A DNA stretch of 22,539 nt from a virus, in the IMG/VR virus record IMGVR_UViG_3300017782_000247, positions 1-22,539 of that record, one strand, 5' to 3'. A program made the translations under genes and the position numbers. The notes beneath the pieces were generated by a model. It had not been told where the DNA came from, ran no database searches, and saw only the letters and a list, made by a program, of their open reading frames with translations. Shown here in pieces: positions 1 through 14,916 of the stretch (the first letter of the stretch is position 1; each line of letters starts with the position of its first letter).

Positions 1-544
1 AGACACTTGCTAATTCCTCTTTCGCATAATTTTCTAAATCAAATCCAAGATTTGATATTTTATCAAAATTATTATCTACGTCCAAATTATTAAACTTAAC
101 ATCAAAGGCATTATTGTAAAATACCTTTATAAATTCAGAAAAAGTTTTTATTTGATTGTTATTGTACAGTGTTAAAGGCTGTTTAAAATTACCTAAATTT
201 GACCTCTTTCCAGAAAAGCAAATAACAATGTTAAATTCATTCGTACTATTGGGATAAAAAAATGATTCAGAACTCATTTCTAAATTAGTAAAGACATTAC
301 CAGAAGTATTAATATAAAAGTGAAAGGTGTTTAATAAATTAGATGCATCAAGATCCCTTAATGATTCTAAAAAACTTCTGTTGTCTTTGTTTACGTAAGA
401 AAATGCACTAATGGAAAAAACAGTTTTTTTAGTTTTTTCTATATTGTACATAATTTCATTCTTAATATGTAATCTATCTACAATAAGTCTGTTTTTTTGG
501 TAATTTTTTATTCCAAGATCAAAGTTAAAGGAAGGTGCAATCAT
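1..544 (-). CDS. Partial gene; amidase-like (T7-lysozyme/PGRP) fold without zinc ligands, probable baseplate hub accessory
   Basis: The frame is open from an ATG at 544 to the window edge (181 codons; C-terminus missing). ATG overlaps the gp5 stop as ATGA, and AAGGAC lies just upstream, so the two genes are translationally coupled. Residues about 40-180 line up with the T7 lysozyme/amidase_2 fold from memory: VFSISAFSY against IFVHCSATK, FHFYINTSGNV against YHFIIKRDGTV, FNIVICFSGK against NSIGVCLVGG, and SNLGFDLENY against ACPSFDLKRW. The three zinc ligands of T7 lysozyme (His17, His122, Cys130) appear to be replaced by non-ligand residues (Ser/Ile, Asn and Asn/Leu), so an enzyme is unlikely. 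The position after gp5 suggests a structural role at the hub, perhaps peptidoglycan binding. The coding call is strong; the fold assignment is inference. Confidence 0.8.
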   Translation of the reverse strand, partial: MIAPSFNFDLGIKNYQKNRLIVDRLHIKNEIMYNIEKTKKTVFSISAFSYVNKDNRSFLESLRDLDASNLLNTFHFYINTSGNVFTNLEMSSESFFYPNSTNEFNIVICFSGKRSNLGNFKQPLTLYNNNQIKTFSEFIKVFYNNAFDVKFNNLDVDNNFDKISNLGFDLENYAKEELASV

Positions 545-1008
545 ACTACTTGTCCTTCAGTAGTGACAGGATTTTCTGTTGTTTCAACAGAAGTCGATTC
601 GCCCTGACCCGGACCAGAACGATTAAACTTAATTATACTTTGAATATCAGAAACTGAATCAACAGGACTTGGTGTAATTCCCGGAAGAGAACCTAAAATG
701 CAGGGATGTTGTCTGTGACGATCCATCCAAAATCCTACTACAAATGAACCTACTTCAAGACCCATCGTCTCTCCGATATCATGAACATCAGCCCCTGTAT
801 TTGGCATGAGTACGGTAGCTAAAGGCAAGTCTGCTAAAGGTGCTAATTCGTCGTGTAATCCTAAAATACGAATTGCAACACGCAATAGTGTATCAGCATC
901 TCTAGATTCTTCTGCCGTATACACTTCATCAACGTATGCAAAAAACCAAGTAAAATTATTGCCATAAAAATCTGACTGAAAACCTGCAAGATCAGTATTA
1001 TTACTCAT
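541..1008 (-). CDS. gp5: gp5-like baseplate hub protein, OB-fold domain only (no lysozyme)
   Basis: This 155-residue protein resembles the N-terminal OB-fold domain of T4 gp5, the central spike base that sits on the gp27 trimer. Residues about 20-111 carry the landmarks: WFFAYVDEV, LLRVAIRILGLHDE, then GSFVVGFWMDRHRQHPCILGSLPGI, matching the gp5 pattern of a barrel ending in 'V-G-F-x-D ... P-x-I-L-G-x-x-G'. After residue 111 there is only a short Ser/Thr/Glu-rich tail, whereas T4 gp5 (575 residues) continues with a lysozyme and a beta-helix. Neither is encoded here or immediately downstream. It lies 29 bases after gp27, its structural partner in T4, and overlaps the next gene by ATGA. The hub role is well supported by both sequence and context. 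Confidence 0.85.
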   Translation of the reverse strand: MSNNTDLAGFQSDFYGNNFTWFFAYVDEVYTAEESRDADTLLRVAIRILGLHDELAPLADLPLATVLMPNTGADVHDIGETMGLEVGSFVVGFWMDRHRQHPCILGSLPGITPSPVDSVSDIQSIIKFNRSGPGQGESTSVETTENPVTTEGQVV

Positions 1009-1037: not shown

Positions 1038-2294
1038 TTAACCTCTCTGACCATCAAGACCCAACTCAAGCTGAGAGTATACCTCTCCGTTAGTTGTCAC
1101 ACTATGACGTATTGCGAGAACTAAGTAATTTCCAGTAAGTTCAGGATCCAAAGGTCTGTCAGGATCTTTAGTGTTTATTGGATACACCATTTCAACGATA
1201 TCACCCGGACCAATATCCACACATCCATACGTGCTAATAGAAACCCTTTTATTCAAAAATCCTGCTGCAGATGTCTTAGGTTTTAAATATGCGTCTTCTA
1301 AATTGGGTTTTTCAAAATAAGTCTCATCATCATTTCTCGGCTCATATATAGTTCGTGTCTCTCTTGGAGATGCCATTAGTTTTCCAATTTCTGAAACTAA
1401 TGGCATTTGCCGTGATTCCATAGAAACAGGTTGTGTCAAGTCTTTTGTAAACGTGCAAATTTTATTAACAAACCCTATGTCAACGTATTCTTTAGATGTA
1501 TAGCCTTGCTGCAGCATAGAGTGAGCATCAAACCCTGACTCTTGACCAAACACTAATATTTTAGCAATTTTATCTCCATTGACGTACTGTGAATCAATTA
1601 TATGAGCAGCACCAGTCATATTATATTCTGTCATCACATATCTATATTTTGGACCTGCCTTTGCCAATTCACTTACCTCATCAAGAAAAAATTTAGGTTT
1701 TCCTGATTTAAATCTTTCGTATAATACAAACATATTATTTCCTGTCCCACCTGCCCTCTCAAGCAAAAAAGAGATTGCTTGCATGGGTGTTTGACGTGGA
1801 ATATCAATGTTTACTGCTGGTGATGAAAAAGCATTTATCTGCAAGTCGCCTTTGATATATTTGCCAAAAACATATTTTATAATGTTTGTGCAGGTTTCCG
1901 GGTTGTTTTTAAATTTCCATTCTTGAACTTTCTGTGAGCTATTGTATATGTGCTCTTGGCTCATACAAATAAGCTCTACCCCCAGAGCCTTTCGACCATT
2001 AACCATAGCCGTCTTTGTGCTATTAATATGAAACGAACCATCAATCGTTTCACCAGCACCATCGGTTATACTGACAGCTAAAGCCCGGTCTCCATCAATA
2101 CGGCCATTTCGAAGTATTGCATCTTCGTCAGATATAATACAACTTAATGTCATAAAGGGATGATCTAGAGAAGAATAGGCTTTTAGAGAAGAGACGTACT
2201 GTGTTATGTCCAAGCCACCTCCACCACCAAAAAGATTAACAACCTCCACCTTAAATGCTTTTTGGCCTTTGGCTGGCTCTAAAAAGTTAACCAT
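1038..2294 (-). CDS. gp27: gp27-like baseplate hub subunit
   Basis: This 418-residue protein is close in length to T4 gp27 (391), which forms the trimeric ring that continues the tail tube into the baseplate and holds gp5. Features consistent with this are the opening FKVEVVNLFGGGGGLDITQYVSSLKAYSSLDHPFMTLS split over residues 14-50, a 'phage tail protein D' style first barrel, and a C-terminal barrel with GDIVEMVYP and GNYLVLAIRHSV typical of late hub domains (GNYLV..I.H...). It overlaps gp53 by 8 bases and is followed by gp5, the usual gp27-gp5 partnership. A 13-bp perfect inverted repeat lies within the coding region (1370-1406). Assignment rests on context plus domain pattern rather than an alignment. 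Confidence 0.8.
   Translation of the reverse strand: MVNFLEPAKGQKAFKVEVVNLFGGGGGLDITQYVSSLKAYSSLDHPFMTLSCIISDEDAILRNGRIDGDRALAVSITDGAGETIDGSFHINSTKTAMVNGRKALGVELICMSQEHIYNSSQKVQEWKFKNNPETCTNIIKYVFGKYIKGDLQINAFSSPAVNIDIPRQTPMQAISFLLERAGGTGNNMFVLYERFKSGKPKFFLDEVSELAKAGPKYRYVMTEYNMTGAAHIIDSQYVNGDKIAKILVFGQESGFDAHSMLQQGYTSKEYVDIGFVNKICTFTKDLTQPVSMESRQMPLVSEIGKLMASPRETRTIYEPRNDDETYFEKPNLEDAYLKPKTSAAGFLNKRVSISTYGCVDIGPGDIVEMVYPINTKDPDRPLDPELTGNYLVLAIRHSVTTNGEVYSQLELGLDGQRG
1370..1406. repeat. Perfect 13-bp inverted repeat inside gp27
   Basis: Arms ATGCCATTAGTTT (1370-1382) and AAACTAATGGCAT (1394-1406) are exact reverse complements around an 11-base loop. It encodes part of the protein around residues 297-308, so it is under coding constraint. 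No T-run follows on either strand. The CCATTAG core recurs in the inverted repeat at 5388-5419. Function unknown. Confidence 0.85.
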
Positions 2295-2835
2295 TAAATA
2301 ATCTCTCCACCTCTTCTTGCACTTGATCTATGAAAGATGGATCAATCAAGTCGATGTTTCTCAAATTATCATTTCTTTCTTCATGGTACTCGAATGCCGT
2401 AACAGGATTCCATCCAGTTCGATCAATAGAAATCGTTGCATCAACAAAATCAGAATTAGAATATCTACTAAAGGTATCTTGATTAATTGTAAAACCGTAT
2501 TTTGGATTACTATAATGTAATATCGTTTCTTTAGCTGCAGGTACAGACCCATATTTCTGAATGTAAAAGTTTGTCAACTGCTTATAAGACTTAGGCCACT
2601 CATTATATACATCTAAAATTTTATTAGACATCAAAACAAGCCAAGAGAAAAACACACTTCCATAGAAGTTAAATGCAACTTCTTCAGGCGATTCATCATC
2701 CTCAACAGTATATTTTAAAAAAGCGTTTGGATTATTAAAAGCGTCATCAACCACTTTTGAAGATACCATAAGATTTCTTGCAAGCTTACCATTGTATTCT
2801 ATTATTGGTAAATTCTTAAATAGACCTTTTGACAT
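2287..2835 (-). CDS. gp53: gp53-like baseplate wedge subunit
   Basis: The 182-residue product matches T4 gp53 (196 residues), a wedge protein that links the inner baseplate to the hub. The diagnostic stretch is residues about 40-75: the acidic VEDDESPEEVAFNFYGS followed by VFFSWLVLMSNKILDVYNEWP, which is the LysM-like 'D.p..iay.lYG....wWlil..N.i.dp...wP' pattern of the gp53/W family. After it comes LTNFYIQKYGS, also typical. Start ATG at 2835 overlaps the gp48 stop as TAATG and its end overlaps gp27 by 8 bases, so gp48, gp53 and gp27 form one operon. Confidence 0.85.
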   Translation of the reverse strand: MSKGLFKNLPIIEYNGKLARNLMVSSKVVDDAFNNPNAFLKYTVEDDESPEEVAFNFYGSVFFSWLVLMSNKILDVYNEWPKSYKQLTNFYIQKYGSVPAAKETILHYSNPKYGFTINQDTFSRYSNSDFVDATISIDRTGWNPVTAFEYHEERNDNLRNIDLIDPSFIDQVQEEVERLFNG

Positions 2836-4112
2836 TAAGCAAATCCACTTCTACTAGCCTGATAATCACCTCTGACTCTACTGGTTATTTCCATAATTGT
2901 TAATGACAACGCCACAGAAGTAGGAGCACCAGACTTAAAAAAGAATGGTGAACCAGAAGCAGAATAGTCTACAGTTATATCAGTTATAACACTCTCAAAT
3001 ATTGGAAAAATAATGAGACCGTTTGGCGATCTAATATCAAAACGTGTCAATATTGATGGGTATCTAATAATATTTAAAAATGGATCAATAAGCTCTGGAT
3101 GACTGTGTTCTTTTAGAAGTTGTATAACTTGAAATATAGATTGTGTCCCTGATTCTGAATCTGCATATAGCTTCCATCTAAAATTAAATGTTCTCGGCAT
3201 GACACCAGAAAACTGCTGAACCATGCTATTGTTGAACGCAGTATTAAATCCTTGCACACCCGCCATATTACCAACAGCGCCTATCAAGTTATTTAAATTT
3301 CCCGGCTGTTCATAAAAGCCTTTAGCTTGGTTAAACAATGCCTTCATCTGTGACATACCGCCCTCTATATCGGGAGCTTGTTTTTCACCTAAAGCTCTTA
3401 GAGTTGTTGCAGTAGCATTCATTATGGCATCTTGAATTGCACCACCAGCGCCTTTATGCTTACTCTCGTAACCAATATTCATATTTTCCTGAAGGTTATC
3501 AGGTGTGGGTAGACCGATTGTTCCAGACGAAGAAGATACAGAACCACCACCTCCACCGCTACCTCCTGCTCCCCCTACTCCTGCGCCAGAGGATCCAAAG
3601 CCAGTTCCTCTAAGAATTGGACTATCTAATCTCTGTACACCCGAAGAGTCACTTCTAGTACCACCTCTCTCAAAAGACGCTGGTGAACTTACTCGATTAG
3701 TTGAAAAACCACTATTAGAGTCTCTTTCTCTAAGTCTTTGTAAGTATGCTTCTGTGGTATTTTCCTTACTATCATAATCCACAGAGAACATCTCTTTTAA
3801 CGTAATAATATTATCACCCTTTATTCCTATAGAGGATGATCTATTGGTACAATTTCTGGCGTCAATAATTTGAGGTACTTTACGTCTACCAGATTTTTTA
3901 GACTTATTTTTTCTCTTATTACTGTAACCTTGTGCAGCACTTTTATTTCCAGATTTTTTATTAGGATTTGAAGTGACATAACTTCCAGATCCGGTTTTTA
4001 CAAATCCTCCGCTAGAAGTAGTTACTAGATTAGTCCCACTCGGCTTAGCATTAACAGATCTGCCGACGCCCGGACGTATAGTATCGCCAAAAGTATCAGG
4101 TCTTCTAACCAT
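2835..4112 (-). CDS. gp48: gp48-like baseplate tail-tube cap with long disordered N-terminal extension
   Basis: The last ~120 of 425 residues carry the gp48/gp54 signature: PRTFNFRWKLYADSES (residues about 306-321), then a 'HPELIDPFLNIIRYPSILTRFDI' element and a final VITDITVDYSASGSPFFF ... ALSLTIMEI strand pair. In T4 gp48 caps the baseplate and starts the tail tube. The first ~220 residues are low complexity: a Lys/Arg/Ser-rich patch (about residues 52-80) and a Gly/Ser linker (GAGVGGAGGSGGGGG, about residues 176-190), both absent from T4 gp48 as I know it (364 residues). AGGAAG lies before the ATG. It is the first gene of the leftward baseplate operon, with a late-promoter box about 92 bases upstream. 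gp54 is an alternative name. Confidence 0.8.
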   Translation of the reverse strand: MVRRPDTFGDTIRPGVGRSVNAKPSGTNLVTTSSGGFVKTGSGSYVTSNPNKKSGNKSAAQGYSNKRKNKSKKSGRRKVPQIIDARNCTNRSSSIGIKGDNIITLKEMFSVDYDSKENTTEAYLQRLRERDSNSGFSTNRVSSPASFERGGTRSDSSGVQRLDSPILRGTGFGSSGAGVGGAGGSGGGGGSVSSSSGTIGLPTPDNLQENMNIGYESKHKGAGGAIQDAIMNATATTLRALGEKQAPDIEGGMSQMKALFNQAKGFYEQPGNLNNLIGAVGNMAGVQGFNTAFNNSMVQQFSGVMPRTFNFRWKLYADSESGTQSIFQVIQLLKEHSHPELIDPFLNIIRYPSILTRFDIRSPNGLIIFPIFESVITDITVDYSASGSPFFFKSGAPTSVALSLTIMEITSRVRGDYQASRSGFA

Positions 4113-4135: not shown

Positions 4136-4573
4136 ATGCCAGCTAAAAAGGGTTACTTTAAACCAAAAAATTACAGTAAATATAAAGGAGACCCAACTAA
4201 GATTATTTATAGGAGTAGTTGGGAAAAGATGTTCATGGGATACTTGGATAACAACCCAAGTGTCGTTGAATGGTCTTCTGAAGAGTTTTTTATACCTTAC
4301 AAAAGTCCTGTGGACGGACGTGTGAGAAGATACTTTCCTGACTTCTACGTGAAGAAGAGAAACAAACAGGGCGGTATTGATATTCTTGTTGTAGAAATCA
4401 AACCAAAATATCAAACAGAAAAACCAGATAAAGTTAAAAAAATAACTAAGCAATATGTAAATAAGGTTAAGACATACGCTATTAACGAGTCTAAGTGGAA
4501 AGCTGCAGAAAGCTTTTGCAAAGATCGAAAGTGGAAGTTTCAGATTTTAACAGAGAACGAGCTAGGACTCTAA
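4136..4573 (+). CDS. gp4: gp4-like head completion protein, TnsA/PD-(D/E)xK nuclease fold
   Basis: This 145-residue protein resembles T4 gp4 (gp50/gp4), which completes the filled head before the tail is attached. Residues 25-70 contain YRSSWEKMFMGYLDNNPSV and WSSEEFFIPY ... GRVRRYFPDFYV, strongly conserved in T4-like gp4. A nuclease core is visible: PD at 68-69 and E87-I-K89 in VVEIKPK, giving a PD-(D/E)xK arrangement as in TnsA-like endonucleases. The gene is divergent from gp48 with only 23 bases between the starts and no good ribosome binding site, and it is directly followed (no gap) by the next gene. Confidence 0.88.
   Translation: MPAKKGYFKPKNYSKYKGDPTKIIYRSSWEKMFMGYLDNNPSVVEWSSEEFFIPYKSPVDGRVRRYFPDFYVKKRNKQGGIDILVVEIKPKYQTEKPDKVKKITKQYVNKVKTYAINESKWKAAESFCKDRKWKFQILTENELGL
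4204..4211 (-). promoter_or_regulatory. T4-type late promoter box (TATAAATA) for the leftward baseplate operon
   Basis: The minus strand reads TATAAATA exactly, the consensus late promoter of T4-like phages recognised by the gp55 sigma with gp33 and the clamp. It lies inside gp4 on the opposite strand, with the predicted start about 85 bases upstream of the gp48 ATG. This is the only perfect copy I found on the minus strand, and it is placed at the head of a late operon. gp33 is encoded in this window; gp55 would lie elsewhere. Confidence 0.7.
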
Positions 4574-6609: not shown

Positions 6610-6791
6610 TACTGTTGGGTCATAACAACCTTAAAAATTACTTCAAACTAATTTTTAATATGGCCCAGCATCATGGATACAGTATATCAGACATTGAAAA
6701 TATGATACCTTTTGAACTTGAATTATATTCTTCCATGCTGATTGACTATTTGGAGCAAAAGAAAAACGAACAGGAAATGGCTAGAAGATAA
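6606..6791 (+). CDS. gp51-like hub assembly segment, probably expressed as a gp26 frameshift extension
   Basis: Sixty-one codons in the -1 frame relative to gp26, ending at TAA 6789-6791, which overlaps the next ATG by one base. The encoded pattern NYFKLIFNMAQHHGYSI followed by DIENMIPFELELYSSMLIDYLEQ is strongly protein-like and recalls the small assembly protein that follows gp26 in T4-like marine phages. The only ATG in frame (6660) would cut the conserved NYF..IF start, and neither it nor the TTG at 6615 has a ribosome binding site, so frameshifting from gp26 is the simplest route of expression. The name gp51 is from position; T4 gp51 is much longer (249 residues). Confidence 0.65.
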   Translation, partial: LILLGHNNLKNYFKLIFNMAQHHGYSISDIENMIPFELELYSSMLIDYLEQKKNEQEMARR

Positions 6792-9022
6792 TGGCAGACG
6801 ATTTACCACCAATTCCACAGCAAAGATCTTATCCCAAGATGCTGGCTAGTGAAAAATTAATTAACTTTATAAAAGATAAAGAAAAATTTTATTCTGAGCC
6901 TTACAGCGATTTTAAGCAATGGAGCATTGGCTACGGATCTTATGCAGGAAAACTAACTGGCGATCCAACAATAAAATCTATAACAAAAGATGGTGCTGAT
7001 AAACTCCTAAAACAGGAGATAAAAAAGTATGAAGCAAATGTAAACAAATTTAATACATTTTATAATTTTACACAAAATGAATTTGATGCAATGGTTTCGT
7101 TTGCTTACAATCTTGGTAGCATTAATCAGCTAACAGATAATGGTAATAGAAGCAAAGAACAAATACTTCAAAAAATGCCCGATTACAACAAGGCAGGTGG
7201 AAAAGTTGCAGGTGGCCTTGTAACTAGAAGAAAAGAAGAGGTCAGCATTTTTAAGGGAGAAAACACTCCTAAAGCATATGATGATAGTAATGTAGCTGCT
7301 TCATCACTTAGAGATGAAAATGCAGATGATCCTATAGCTAAAATTATTAGCAAAAGCAGGGATGGAAAAAGTACGTCAACAAATGAAGATCAAGATTATC
7401 CTGTATTAACTGAAAGGACTGAACAACTGAAAGGAGAAGTAGCAGGTGGATTAGTTAGCCTTGCTGCAAACATGTTTCCCGATAGGGTTGCTGCTGCTAT
7501 CACTAGTTCTCTTCCTTCAAATATTGCAAGTCTACCATCGGCTTCTAAAATTTCAGGTGAAATTTTGGAGTCAATACGATCCGGTGAAGGGGTTAAGTCA
7601 TTTACTTCGGCTGTTGAAAAGATTTCTTCGGCAGATACTCCCGTAGGCAGACTTCAGGCTATCGGTGATATTGCAACAGAATATGAAGCAGACATCAAAG
7701 CTCTTTATCCCGACTTAGGAAATATAGATTTTGATGAAGTTATTCCAGAAATTATAGATCTTTCCATTACAGAAAGTCCTAAAGAAAGAATAATAAAAGC
7801 AATAGAATTAGCGGAAAAAACAGGAATAGGCTTAGAAGAGATTGATTCTTTAAGTATACCCGGCTTTCCTTCCATAAGAGAAATGGTAAAAAATCCAGAT
7901 AAAATTCCAGATGTCAAAGACAAACGTTTTGGCATTCCTGTACCGGGAGCAAAAATAGACAATTATCTAAGAGATCTTTTGGGGTCGGACGATATTGCTG
8001 TTCAAAAAGAAGCAATTGAAAATTTAAAAAATTCAGCAATTGGTGGGCTTTTTGAAGGATACCAAGCTGAAACTTTTTTAACTGGATCTCTAGAAGATAT
8101 TGTAAAAACACCACTCGTAACAGAGCAGCTTGGTAATTTACCCGAAAGACTTCTTACTGCAGAAAGACCTAAAGCAATTGAAACTGCGTTGACACGATTT
8201 GCTGGTGATATAATTTCTGAAGAGACTGATGGAGCTATAGACAGGAACACCTCTCAAACACTTCTTGCTGGTGGTACAGAAGAAGAAGCTAAAAAAATGA
8301 GACAAACAATTGGAGGTATGGCCCTAGACAATTTCATCGAATCAAATCCAAATCTTGCAGGTATCGTTCAATGGTTCTCGGAGAACAAAGAAATAATCAC
8401 CCTGCTTGGTTCTGCTGGCGCTCTGGCGGGTCTGTCTGGTCTTTTAGGTGGTGGGGCTTTAGGAGGATTTGCAGCAGGTGCTGGTGGTCTTGCTGGCGTT
8501 AGAATGCTTCTTGGTAAAGATGGTTATGATGAGTTTCAAGACATGATCAAGACAGCAGCATCTCCAGTGTTTGACTTTGCGAGCGAAGCTTTAGAATCCT
8601 CTGGATTGGCTGATATTCCGGTGATTGGCGCAATGCTCAAAGGAACTGTTGGTATTGGTAAAGAGAATCCATTAGCGGCAACTGCAGCACTAACTGGAAA
8701 CTTTAGTATGGCGGCTGGTCTTATGGCAGGACAATCTGGTATCGATATCTTCGATCAAGAAAAGACGGCGGCTGGTCTTCTGGCAGGTTTGACAGACAGT
8801 TTTAATGGCTTCTCAACGCAGGTTCAACAAGATCTTGCTGCTGTAGGAAATACAAACGACGACCAAAGACAAACGCCTACTAGTAAAGATGGCAATCCCG
8901 CAGAGCAAACTGGACAACCAGCGGCTGGATCACAAAGGTCTATGTATGATCCATTAGCGGTAACAACGTATCAAGGATTTGGATATTCCGGCCCCGGCGG
9001 AATTGTGAGCGGCGGAACTTAA
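6791..9022 (+). CDS. Tape-measure-like tail protein with N-terminal GH24 lysozyme domain
   Basis: 743 residues. Residues about 17-155 are a glycoside hydrolase 24 lysozyme: catalytic E31, D40 eight residues on, then SIGYGS where the family has TIGYGH (T to S, H to S), then TQNEFDAMVSFAYNLG and GGKVAGGLVTRRKEE, all family hallmarks. Middle residues 200-530 are helical and acidic; residues about 533-572 form a Gly/Ala-rich hydrophobic stretch (TLLGSAGALAGLSGLLGGG and on) of the kind tape measures insert into the membrane. It directly follows the gp26/gp51 pair, the place a tape measure holds after its frameshifted chaperones in many tailed phages. T4 gp29 (590 residues) has no lysozyme. Enzyme domain: strong; tape-measure role: inference. 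Confidence 0.82.
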   Translation: MADDLPPIPQQRSYPKMLASEKLINFIKDKEKFYSEPYSDFKQWSIGYGSYAGKLTGDPTIKSITKDGADKLLKQEIKKYEANVNKFNTFYNFTQNEFDAMVSFAYNLGSINQLTDNGNRSKEQILQKMPDYNKAGGKVAGGLVTRRKEEVSIFKGENTPKAYDDSNVAASSLRDENADDPIAKIISKSRDGKSTSTNEDQDYPVLTERTEQLKGEVAGGLVSLAANMFPDRVAAAITSSLPSNIASLPSASKISGEILESIRSGEGVKSFTSAVEKISSADTPVGRLQAIGDIATEYEADIKALYPDLGNIDFDEVIPEIIDLSITESPKERIIKAIELAEKTGIGLEEIDSLSIPGFPSIREMVKNPDKIPDVKDKRFGIPVPGAKIDNYLRDLLGSDDIAVQKEAIENLKNSAIGGLFEGYQAETFLTGSLEDIVKTPLVTEQLGNLPERLLTAERPKAIETALTRFAGDIISEETDGAIDRNTSQTLLAGGTEEEAKKMRQTIGGMALDNFIESNPNLAGIVQWFSENKEIITLLGSAGALAGLSGLLGGGALGGFAAGAGGLAGVRMLLGKDGYDEFQDMIKTAASPVFDFASEALESSGLADIPVIGAMLKGTVGIGKENPLAATAALTGNFSMAAGLMAGQSGIDIFDQEKTAAGLLAGLTDSFNGFSTQVQQDLAAVGNTNDDQRQTPTSKDGNPAEQTGQPAAGSQRSMYDPLAVTTYQGFGYSGPGGIVSGGT

Positions 9023-14018: not shown

Positions 14019-14042
14019 ACAATAAACCTATTTAATGTCAAC

Positions 14043-14047
14043 AGGAG
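14043..14047 (+). promoter_or_regulatory. Shine-Dalgarno AGGAG that fixes the Ntn-hydrolase start at 14053
   Basis: AGGAG lies 5 bases before ATG 14053. It would be inside the coding region if the ATG at 14035 were used, and that ATG has no comparable site. This places Cys at residue 2. Confidence 0.75.
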
Positions 14048-14052
14048 TCAAC

Positions 14053-14916
14053 ATGTGTGTTGTAGTTGCAAAATATCTACCGGAATATGGTTGGGTTCTC
14101 GCAAAAAATAGAGATCGTAACTATAAGCCTGTTGTTTCTATTAAACAGTCAAATAGAAACGGTATACAAAGACTGTACATGCAAGATGATAAGACACGTT
14201 ATACTGAAGGTGTAAATGAATATGGCGTAGCTATTCTTTCTGCATCTATCATGGTCAAGAAAGATGAGAAAGAAGGTGTTGCTGCTGGTTCTGATGATCA
14301 ATCTGAAAGAACATATTATGCACCTGATGGTATCAGAATAAGAACTGCTCTCTTTAGAAAGACCGCAAAATCTGCGTTGAATACTCTCATTAAACTACAG
14401 ATTCCCGGCAATACACTTATTGCGGATGATAACGAATGCTATATTCTTGAAGGAGCATTTAAAGATTATCACACAACAAATAAGAAGTATGAGTACACTT
14501 TCAAAAAACTAAAAAAGACAGACGGTATCGTAAGAACTAATCACGGAATTGATATGCCTTGGGCTGGTTATCAGAACAATAAAGATAATCCGCACGAAAA
14601 AGCTTCTCGTAAGTCTTCAGAGACTCGGATGGCGATTGTCTTAAAACAATTAAAATCGATCAAGACACCAGAAGACATGCTACAAGTGCTTTCTTCCAGA
14701 CCAGAAAAAGATCCTCAGATGAACCCTATTCGTATGGATGAAAAAAGAAAGGCAATGAAGACTACAGGTCAATTGCTGTGTATTCCTAAAGAAAGAACCC
14801 TTCATTATCGCCCAACTTATTCTGAAATAACCCTTAAGAATTATAACACTCTTAATAATCAGAAAAGTAAGACATTTTTCGAAGTTATTTCCTCACGCAA
14901 ACTTTTTGATATTTGA
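14053..14916 (+). CDS. Ntn-hydrolase family amidohydrolase (choloylglycine hydrolase/penicillin-V-acylase-like)
   Basis: With the start at 14053 the protein has 287 residues and begins MCVVVAKYLPEYG, so removal of Met exposes Cys2 as N-terminal nucleophile. The motifs that follow fit the linear amide C-N hydrolase fold: WVLAKNRDRNY (N19, D21; compare 'GRN-x-D' in bile salt hydrolases), EGVNEYGVAILSAS (compare 'DG-N-E-GL'), NTLIADDNECYILEG and RTNHGIDMPWAG. Such enzymes cut small amides such as acyl-homoserine lactones, penicillin V or conjugated bile acids. The substrate is unknown here. The ATG at 14035 is in frame but would bury the Cys at residue 8. No signal peptide, so it acts in the cytoplasm or after lysis. 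Confidence 0.82.
   Translation: MCVVVAKYLPEYGWVLAKNRDRNYKPVVSIKQSNRNGIQRLYMQDDKTRYTEGVNEYGVAILSASIMVKKDEKEGVAAGSDDQSERTYYAPDGIRIRTALFRKTAKSALNTLIKLQIPGNTLIADDNECYILEGAFKDYHTTNKKYEYTFKKLKKTDGIVRTNHGIDMPWAGYQNNKDNPHEKASRKSSETRMAIVLKQLKSIKTPEDMLQVLSSRPEKDPQMNPIRMDEKRKAMKTTGQLLCIPKERTLHYRPTYSEITLKNYNTLNNQKSKTFFEVISSRKLFDI

Follow-up and report, generated by a model that had tools for sequence, protein, structure and literature searches.

An amidase-like protein without zinc ligands in the lysozyme slot of a three-gene T4-type spike

Gene order at the left edge of the window

The window, by which we mean the whole 22,539-base stretch of viral DNA that was analysed (an IMG/VR record), comes from an aquatic group of T4-like bacterial viruses. 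Its left edge carries, on the minus strand, a row of baseplate genes that ends in the gene under study (the focal gene). The features of this region, with their basis in brackets, are:

2835 to 4112, minus strand: gp48 baseplate tail-tube cap (phrog_230, 1e-21)
2287 to 2835, minus strand: gp53 baseplate wedge (Pfam PF11246, 4e-9; phrog_232, 1e-41)
1038 to 2294, minus strand: gp27-like hub (tail) protein (phrog_350, 3e-31)
541 to 1008, minus strand: N-terminal OB-fold domain of gp5, encoded on its own (155 aa; Pfam PF06714, 2e-7; phrog_430, 1e-17)
541 to 544, minus strand: four-base stop/start overlap (ATGA) of the gp5 OB gene and the focal gene (sequence)
544 to 2, minus strand: focal gene, a 181-aa protein with a predicted amidase fold and no zinc site (ORF, homology, ligand alignment)
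431 to 544, minus strand: N-terminal extension of the focal protein, residues 1-38 (FNFDxGVKNYKKNRLIVDxIHLKNEIL), not present in T7 lysozyme (11-member alignment)
2 to 430, minus strand: amidase-like part, residues 39-181, with the predicted element order b-a-b-b-b-a-a of T7 lysozyme (AF2 model, pLDDT 40; hhalign)

In the 99% identical contigs L002 and L003, a stop codon follows directly after residue 181 of the focal protein; the gene is thus not truncated, and the window misses only the last bases of the stop codon. The overlap with the gp5 gene that had been noticed in the original prediction comprises exactly the four bases 541-544 and recurs in L002, L007, L009, L012, L022 and L024. As it is missing in L025 and L042, a frameshift fusion of the OB and focal genes was considered and rejected.

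The contigs L002 and L003 also reveal what lies downstream, namely a 220-aa needle protein, a 214-aa protein without family matches, gp25 and gp6. The complete order in L002 is gp48, gp53, gp27, gp5 OB, focal gene, needle, an M15-like protein (described below), gp25 and gp6, with overlaps of four and eight bases. The 220-aa protein weakly matches the beta-helix part of gp5 profiles (phrog_24638, phrog_27932 and phrog_430, E 0.002-0.004). A position of the focal gene between gp5 OB and gp5 beta-helix was found in L002, L007, L009, L012, L022, L024, L025, L037, L038, L041 and L042, where the sequences of L025 and L041 start within the OB gene, and is common to all relatives with a complete region (L007, L009, L012, L022, L024, L037, L038 and L042). 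In these relatives, the beta-helix needle of gp5 is encoded next. What is a single OB-lysozyme-needle protein (gp5) in T4 is thus spread over three genes here, with the focal gene in the lysozyme slot. No match to Phage_lysozyme (Pfam), i.e. no GH24 lysozyme, was found in this slot.

The needle proteins themselves vary between 190 and 276 aa (e.g. L022:4487-5293, L038:6012-6812, L007:4994-5824), and some have low-complexity tails (PAGSTATSSAVTSSSGTSGG; VETDPVGPAGGPVPV repeats). Elsewhere in the window, a gp4-like head-completion protein (4136-4573, plus strand) matches the TnsA N-terminal endonuclease domain (PF08722, 2e-23), and a 293-aa protein (14035-14916, plus strand), which is conserved in a 119-kb relative (L119:1848-2729, minus strand), has a weak match to acyl-CoA:6-APA acyltransferase (PF03417) that lies below the cut-off at E 0.012.

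Resemblance to T7-lysozyme-type amidases and loss of the zinc site

The original prediction had aligned the sequence after gp5 by eye with the T7 lysozyme/PGRP amidase pattern, and the motifs on which it relied are present in the focal protein (FHFYINTSGNV at residues 74-84, FNIVICFSGK at 104-113 and GFDLENY at 167-173). We compared an alignment of 11 distinct members, in which the window protein is 41-59% identical to the others, with a profile made from 13 phage amidases, T7 lysozyme among them. The hhalign score of 31.5 (P 2e-4) exceeds the maximum of 23.7 in 400 column shuffles (mean 11.6, s.d. 2.05), as well as the scores of reversed alignments (up to 17.1) and of eight other families of the same phages (9.6-16.7), and it holds at 25-32 when members of either side are left out. 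Among 1,823 unique ORFs scored with the 13-sequence amidase HMM, focal-family members were the two best after the 13 true amidase ORFs (best E 0.01), and 9 of the 13 focal-family ORFs fell within the first 25.

Structure comparison had been proposed as a check alongside profile comparison. The AF2 model of the focal protein is poor (mean pLDDT 40) and does not allow coordinates to be interpreted, but its predicted elements (strand 43-51, helix 58-67, strands 73-78, 84-86 and 104-112, helices 135-144 and 170-180) follow the T7 lysozyme order. When the PDB was searched with this model in Foldseek, N-acetylmuramoyl-L-alanine amidases took the first four ranks and made up 13 of the first 29 rows, while only 38 of 177,635 distinct PDB sequences match an amidase profile; as no single row is significant (best E 0.09), it is this enrichment that constitutes the evidence. 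In VIA, five of the six rows with Z of at least 2 were AmiD, AmpDh2 or AmpD, with a best amidase Z of only 2.3. The N-terminal third (b1 and the strand of H17) is aligned less securely to the amidases than residues 72-181.

Several other searches were negative. Neither Pfam nor PHROGs gave a match above cut-off for the focal family, and no individual member matched Pfam. A PDB profile search with the family returned no amidase, and its neuraminidase matches were at chance level (E near 1). Tblastn of the phage collection with the focal protein yielded nothing credible (best E 0.4), and a scan of bacterial and archaeal genomes found no relative. The missing Pfam and PHROG matches, the poor AF2 model and an identity to the amidases of about 14% (hhalign) would fit a coincidental resemblance of a protein with some other fold. 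We consider this unlikely in view of the calibrated profile-profile score, the ORF rank test, the amidase-led, unbiased Foldseek result and the matching element order. Profile comparisons and the predicted model thus support a resemblance to T7-lysozyme/PGRP-type amidases beyond chance, and the homology proposed in the original prediction was borne out at this level.

The zinc ligands of T7 lysozyme are His17, His122 and Cys130 (T7 residues are numbered here without the initial Met). In the hhalign alignment of the 11 homologues, His122 aligns with D157 of the focal protein (P or S in two members) and Cys130 with N165 (G in one); strand 43-51, in which His17 comes to lie, is free of His in all members. 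The earlier observation that the zinc-binding positions are not His or Cys therefore extends to the whole family, none of whose 11 members has either residue at these positions. Whatever the exact alignment, H26 is the one His shared by at least 10 of the 11 members, and it lies outside the amidase-like part; the one Cys conserved to this degree, C109, aligns with a non-ligand Cys of T7 lysozyme. Lys128 of T7 aligns with I163; K162 (R in one member) is one place away, within alignment error. The catalytic Tyr46 is replaced as well: It aligns with F74, which is invariant in 11 of 11 members. In T7 lysozyme, the exchange Y46F alone abolishes amidase activity (PMC8124813). With ligands and catalytic Tyr lost in every homologue, the sequences make it very unlikely that the focal protein is a zinc amidase, in agreement with the dead amidase that had been predicted.

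We also sought less degraded intermediates, using four neighbour genes as bait, and recovered largely the same few contigs, with the zinc site gone in all. With about 17 contigs from four independent scans, the group is small, the nearest locus outside it (L056) ends before the focal gene, and an HMM search of T4-like outgroups with 24-41% gp25 or needle identity found no focal homologue.

Other hydrolase-like domains of the tail

A second degenerate hydrolase fold is encoded two genes after the focal gene, outside the window, in the 214-219-aa protein between needle and gp25 (L002:5216-5860). Its model has a good core (core pLDDT above 80), and the first VIA rows are the zinc DD-peptidase 1LBU (Z 12.0), VldE and Hedgehog, all of which have the M15/Hedgehog fold; the next row has a Z of 7.1. 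The hhalign score against M15 peptidases is 25.1, compared to a shuffle maximum of 20.6. The M15 motif SxHxxGxAxD reads ADQIQGNAVV in this protein, which indicates that this fold has lost its ligands, too. Its dN/dS is 0.09-0.25 for close pairs. At the equivalent place, Sinorhizobium phage phiM12 and Rhizobium phage RHph_I1_18 have an M15 domain in which the motif is intact. As a separate observation, gp5 of Caulobacter phage Cr30 (L016:11897-14002) matches an M15 peptidase profile (E 6e-6), which raises the possibility that M15 domains next to the needle are widespread among T4-like phages infecting Alphaproteobacteria.

A candidate for an active wall enzyme lies on the other strand of the window:

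6791 to 9022, plus strand: protein of 743 aa at the tape-measure (gp29) position; GH24 lysozyme domain at its N-terminus (Pfam, PHROG, position)

This protein matches Pfam Phage_lysozyme at residues 29-150 (2e-22) and the endolysin family phrog_7 (1.5e-32), and it adjoins gp26 (PF12322, 2e-45), as in HTVC008M and phiM12. E31 and D40 are in place in its GH24 domain, with Ser at the Thr position. The domain is likely the active wall enzyme of this phage. A relative (L007/L118) has an Amidase_2 domain at the same place (L118:948-3845, minus strand; Pfam 4e-22).

The N-terminal module at the tape-measure position is exchanged among close relatives, being GH24 in the window, Amidase_2 in L118 and another domain in L119 (L119:8272-10476, minus strand). 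A SleB-like second domain in the L118 and L119 proteins, a by-eye impression, found no Pfam support and was dropped.

The distribution of these domains suggests that wall cutting may have moved from the spike to the tape measure. Whether this extends to a spike stripped of its enzymes, in which both hub hydrolase slots have become structural and cutting has passed to an exchangeable tape-measure N-terminus, is in our estimation an evenly balanced question.

Role of the focal protein and comparison with other spikes

For close pairs, the focal gene has a dN/dS of 0.05-0.12, which indicates that the protein is kept by selection. Conservation is highest in residues 1-38, with a mean majority fraction of 0.85 as compared to 0.57-0.69 elsewhere. 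Such an N-terminal peak is the pattern of an interface that binds OB domain, needle or gp27 and not that of a retained catalytic groove, which points to a structural role. Our best explanation, to which we assign a probability of roughly 0.6, is a structural hub or spike protein built on a T7-lysozyme/PGRP amidase fold, the zinc site having been lost already by the group's ancestor. The protein, a chain of its own whose gene is flanked by separate genes for the OB domain and the beta-helix needle, would most likely pack beside the needle and under the OB/gp27 torus via its conserved N-terminal extension, and could act as a collar or adaptor. Opening of the wall would then probably fall to another, active enzyme, namely the N-terminal GH24 lysozyme domain of the 743-aa protein. 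We infer presence in the virion, a position in the spike and a division of labour with the tape-measure protein from what was observed: the order of the genes, the kinship of the profiles, the missing ligands and catalytic Tyr, the purifying selection and the GH24 domain.

The main rival to a structural role is peptidoglycan binding as in PGRPs, whereby the dead amidase groove would grip the wall and position the spike or the tape-measure lysozyme. Non-catalytic PGRPs provide an exact precedent, since they have the same fold, lack zinc and bind peptidoglycan (PMC8124813), and the hub slot usually holds a wall-acting domain. However, the equivalent of T7 Tyr46 (Y78 in PGRP-LB) is invariant even in non-catalytic PGRPs (PMC8124813) and is Phe in all 11 focal-family members, and conservation is lower in the amidase-like part than in the N-terminal extension. 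By analogy with PGRPs, we regard wall binding as possible but considerably less probable than a structural role. Of the two roles that the original prediction had left side by side, peptidoglycan-binding and purely structural, the sequence evidence leans towards the structural one, and a part of the spike or hub is the interpretation we favour.

It is more doubtful still that the protein is a non-virion assembly factor, a chaperone or hub catalyst translated together with the spike genes. The overlaps with the OB and needle genes suggest that the focal gene is probably translationally coupled to them, and hub assembly factors such as gp51 are known from T4; against this, the gene's neighbours are structural genes of the baseplate, its slot is exactly that of a structural gp5 domain, and genes of the gp26-gp51 type sit elsewhere in this phage. 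That the protein still hydrolyses the wall by some other catalytic chemistry, or has an unrelated activity, would agree with the strong purifying selection but is highly improbable, with no conserved His at the site, the catalytic Tyr replaced and zinc ligands changed to Asp and Asn.

The gp5 protein of T4 is the textbook cell-puncturing device, one polypeptide that is cleaved once and holds its lysozyme beside the needle. A structural role of the focal protein would mean that in a three-gene spike, in which the enzyme slot holds a conserved, zinc-less amidase fold, this position matters structurally even without catalysis. The split spike also provides a natural experiment on the function of the needle-side domain. 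That wall cutting can pass from one tail protein to another is furthermore suggested by the degenerate M15 fold nearby and by the lysozyme at the tape-measure position.

Modular gp5 proteins and zinc-free amidase folds are each known. The open literature, as far as our incomplete coverage reaches, yielded no inactive amidase or pseudoenzyme in a baseplate, and we did not find the combination of both in a split spike described there. For the hub of phage A-1(L), lysozyme, endoglucanase and peptidase domains have been described (PMC10966104), and gp5 of cyanophage Syn1 has no enzyme match in the focal slot.

T4 gp5 is a single chain of OB fold, lysozyme and beta-helix that undergoes one cleavage, after Ser351, and its lysozyme domains lie next to the needle (PMC3004832); the T4-type gp5 of PX29 likewise has its lysozyme between OB and needle. 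The spike described here shares this module order and the neighbours gp53, gp27, gp25 and gp6, but consists of three genes instead of one, and the GH24 lysozyme is replaced by a predicted, degenerate amidase fold. With T7 lysozyme (gp3.5) and Amidase_2 (PF01510), the focal protein shares FHFYINTSGNV / YHFIIKRDGTV, FNIVICFSGK / NSIGVCLVGG, Q131 / the conserved helix Q, GFDL / SFDL and the predicted element order. It differs in its N-terminal addition of about 38 residues, its location in a spike operon, a similarity below the Pfam cut-off and the replacement of all three zinc ligands and of Tyr46. An amidase-type fold without zinc and with a non-enzymatic role, as predicted here, also characterizes the non-catalytic PGRPs (PGRP-LC, -LE and -SA), which, unlike the focal family with its Phe, keep the Tyr and bind peptidoglycan.

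The hubs of RHph_I1_18 and phiM12 resemble ours in that gp5 is divided or rearranged into modules and an M15 peptidase lies beside the needle, but the catalytic motifs of their enzymes are intact (phage tail lysozyme, GH, M15 SxHxxGxAxD). A T4-type gp5 with a T7-type amidase domain, finally, is found in Vibrio phage VP-1 (1016 aa; L194:250-3300, MH363700.1), whose single chain combines OB (3e-8) with Amidase_2 (3e-12) and ends in an S74 chaperone domain. In contrast to the focal protein, the amidase ligands of VP-1 gp5 are intact, and the domain follows the beta-helix region in one fused chain. Such a protein is a possible model for the source of the degenerate amidase.
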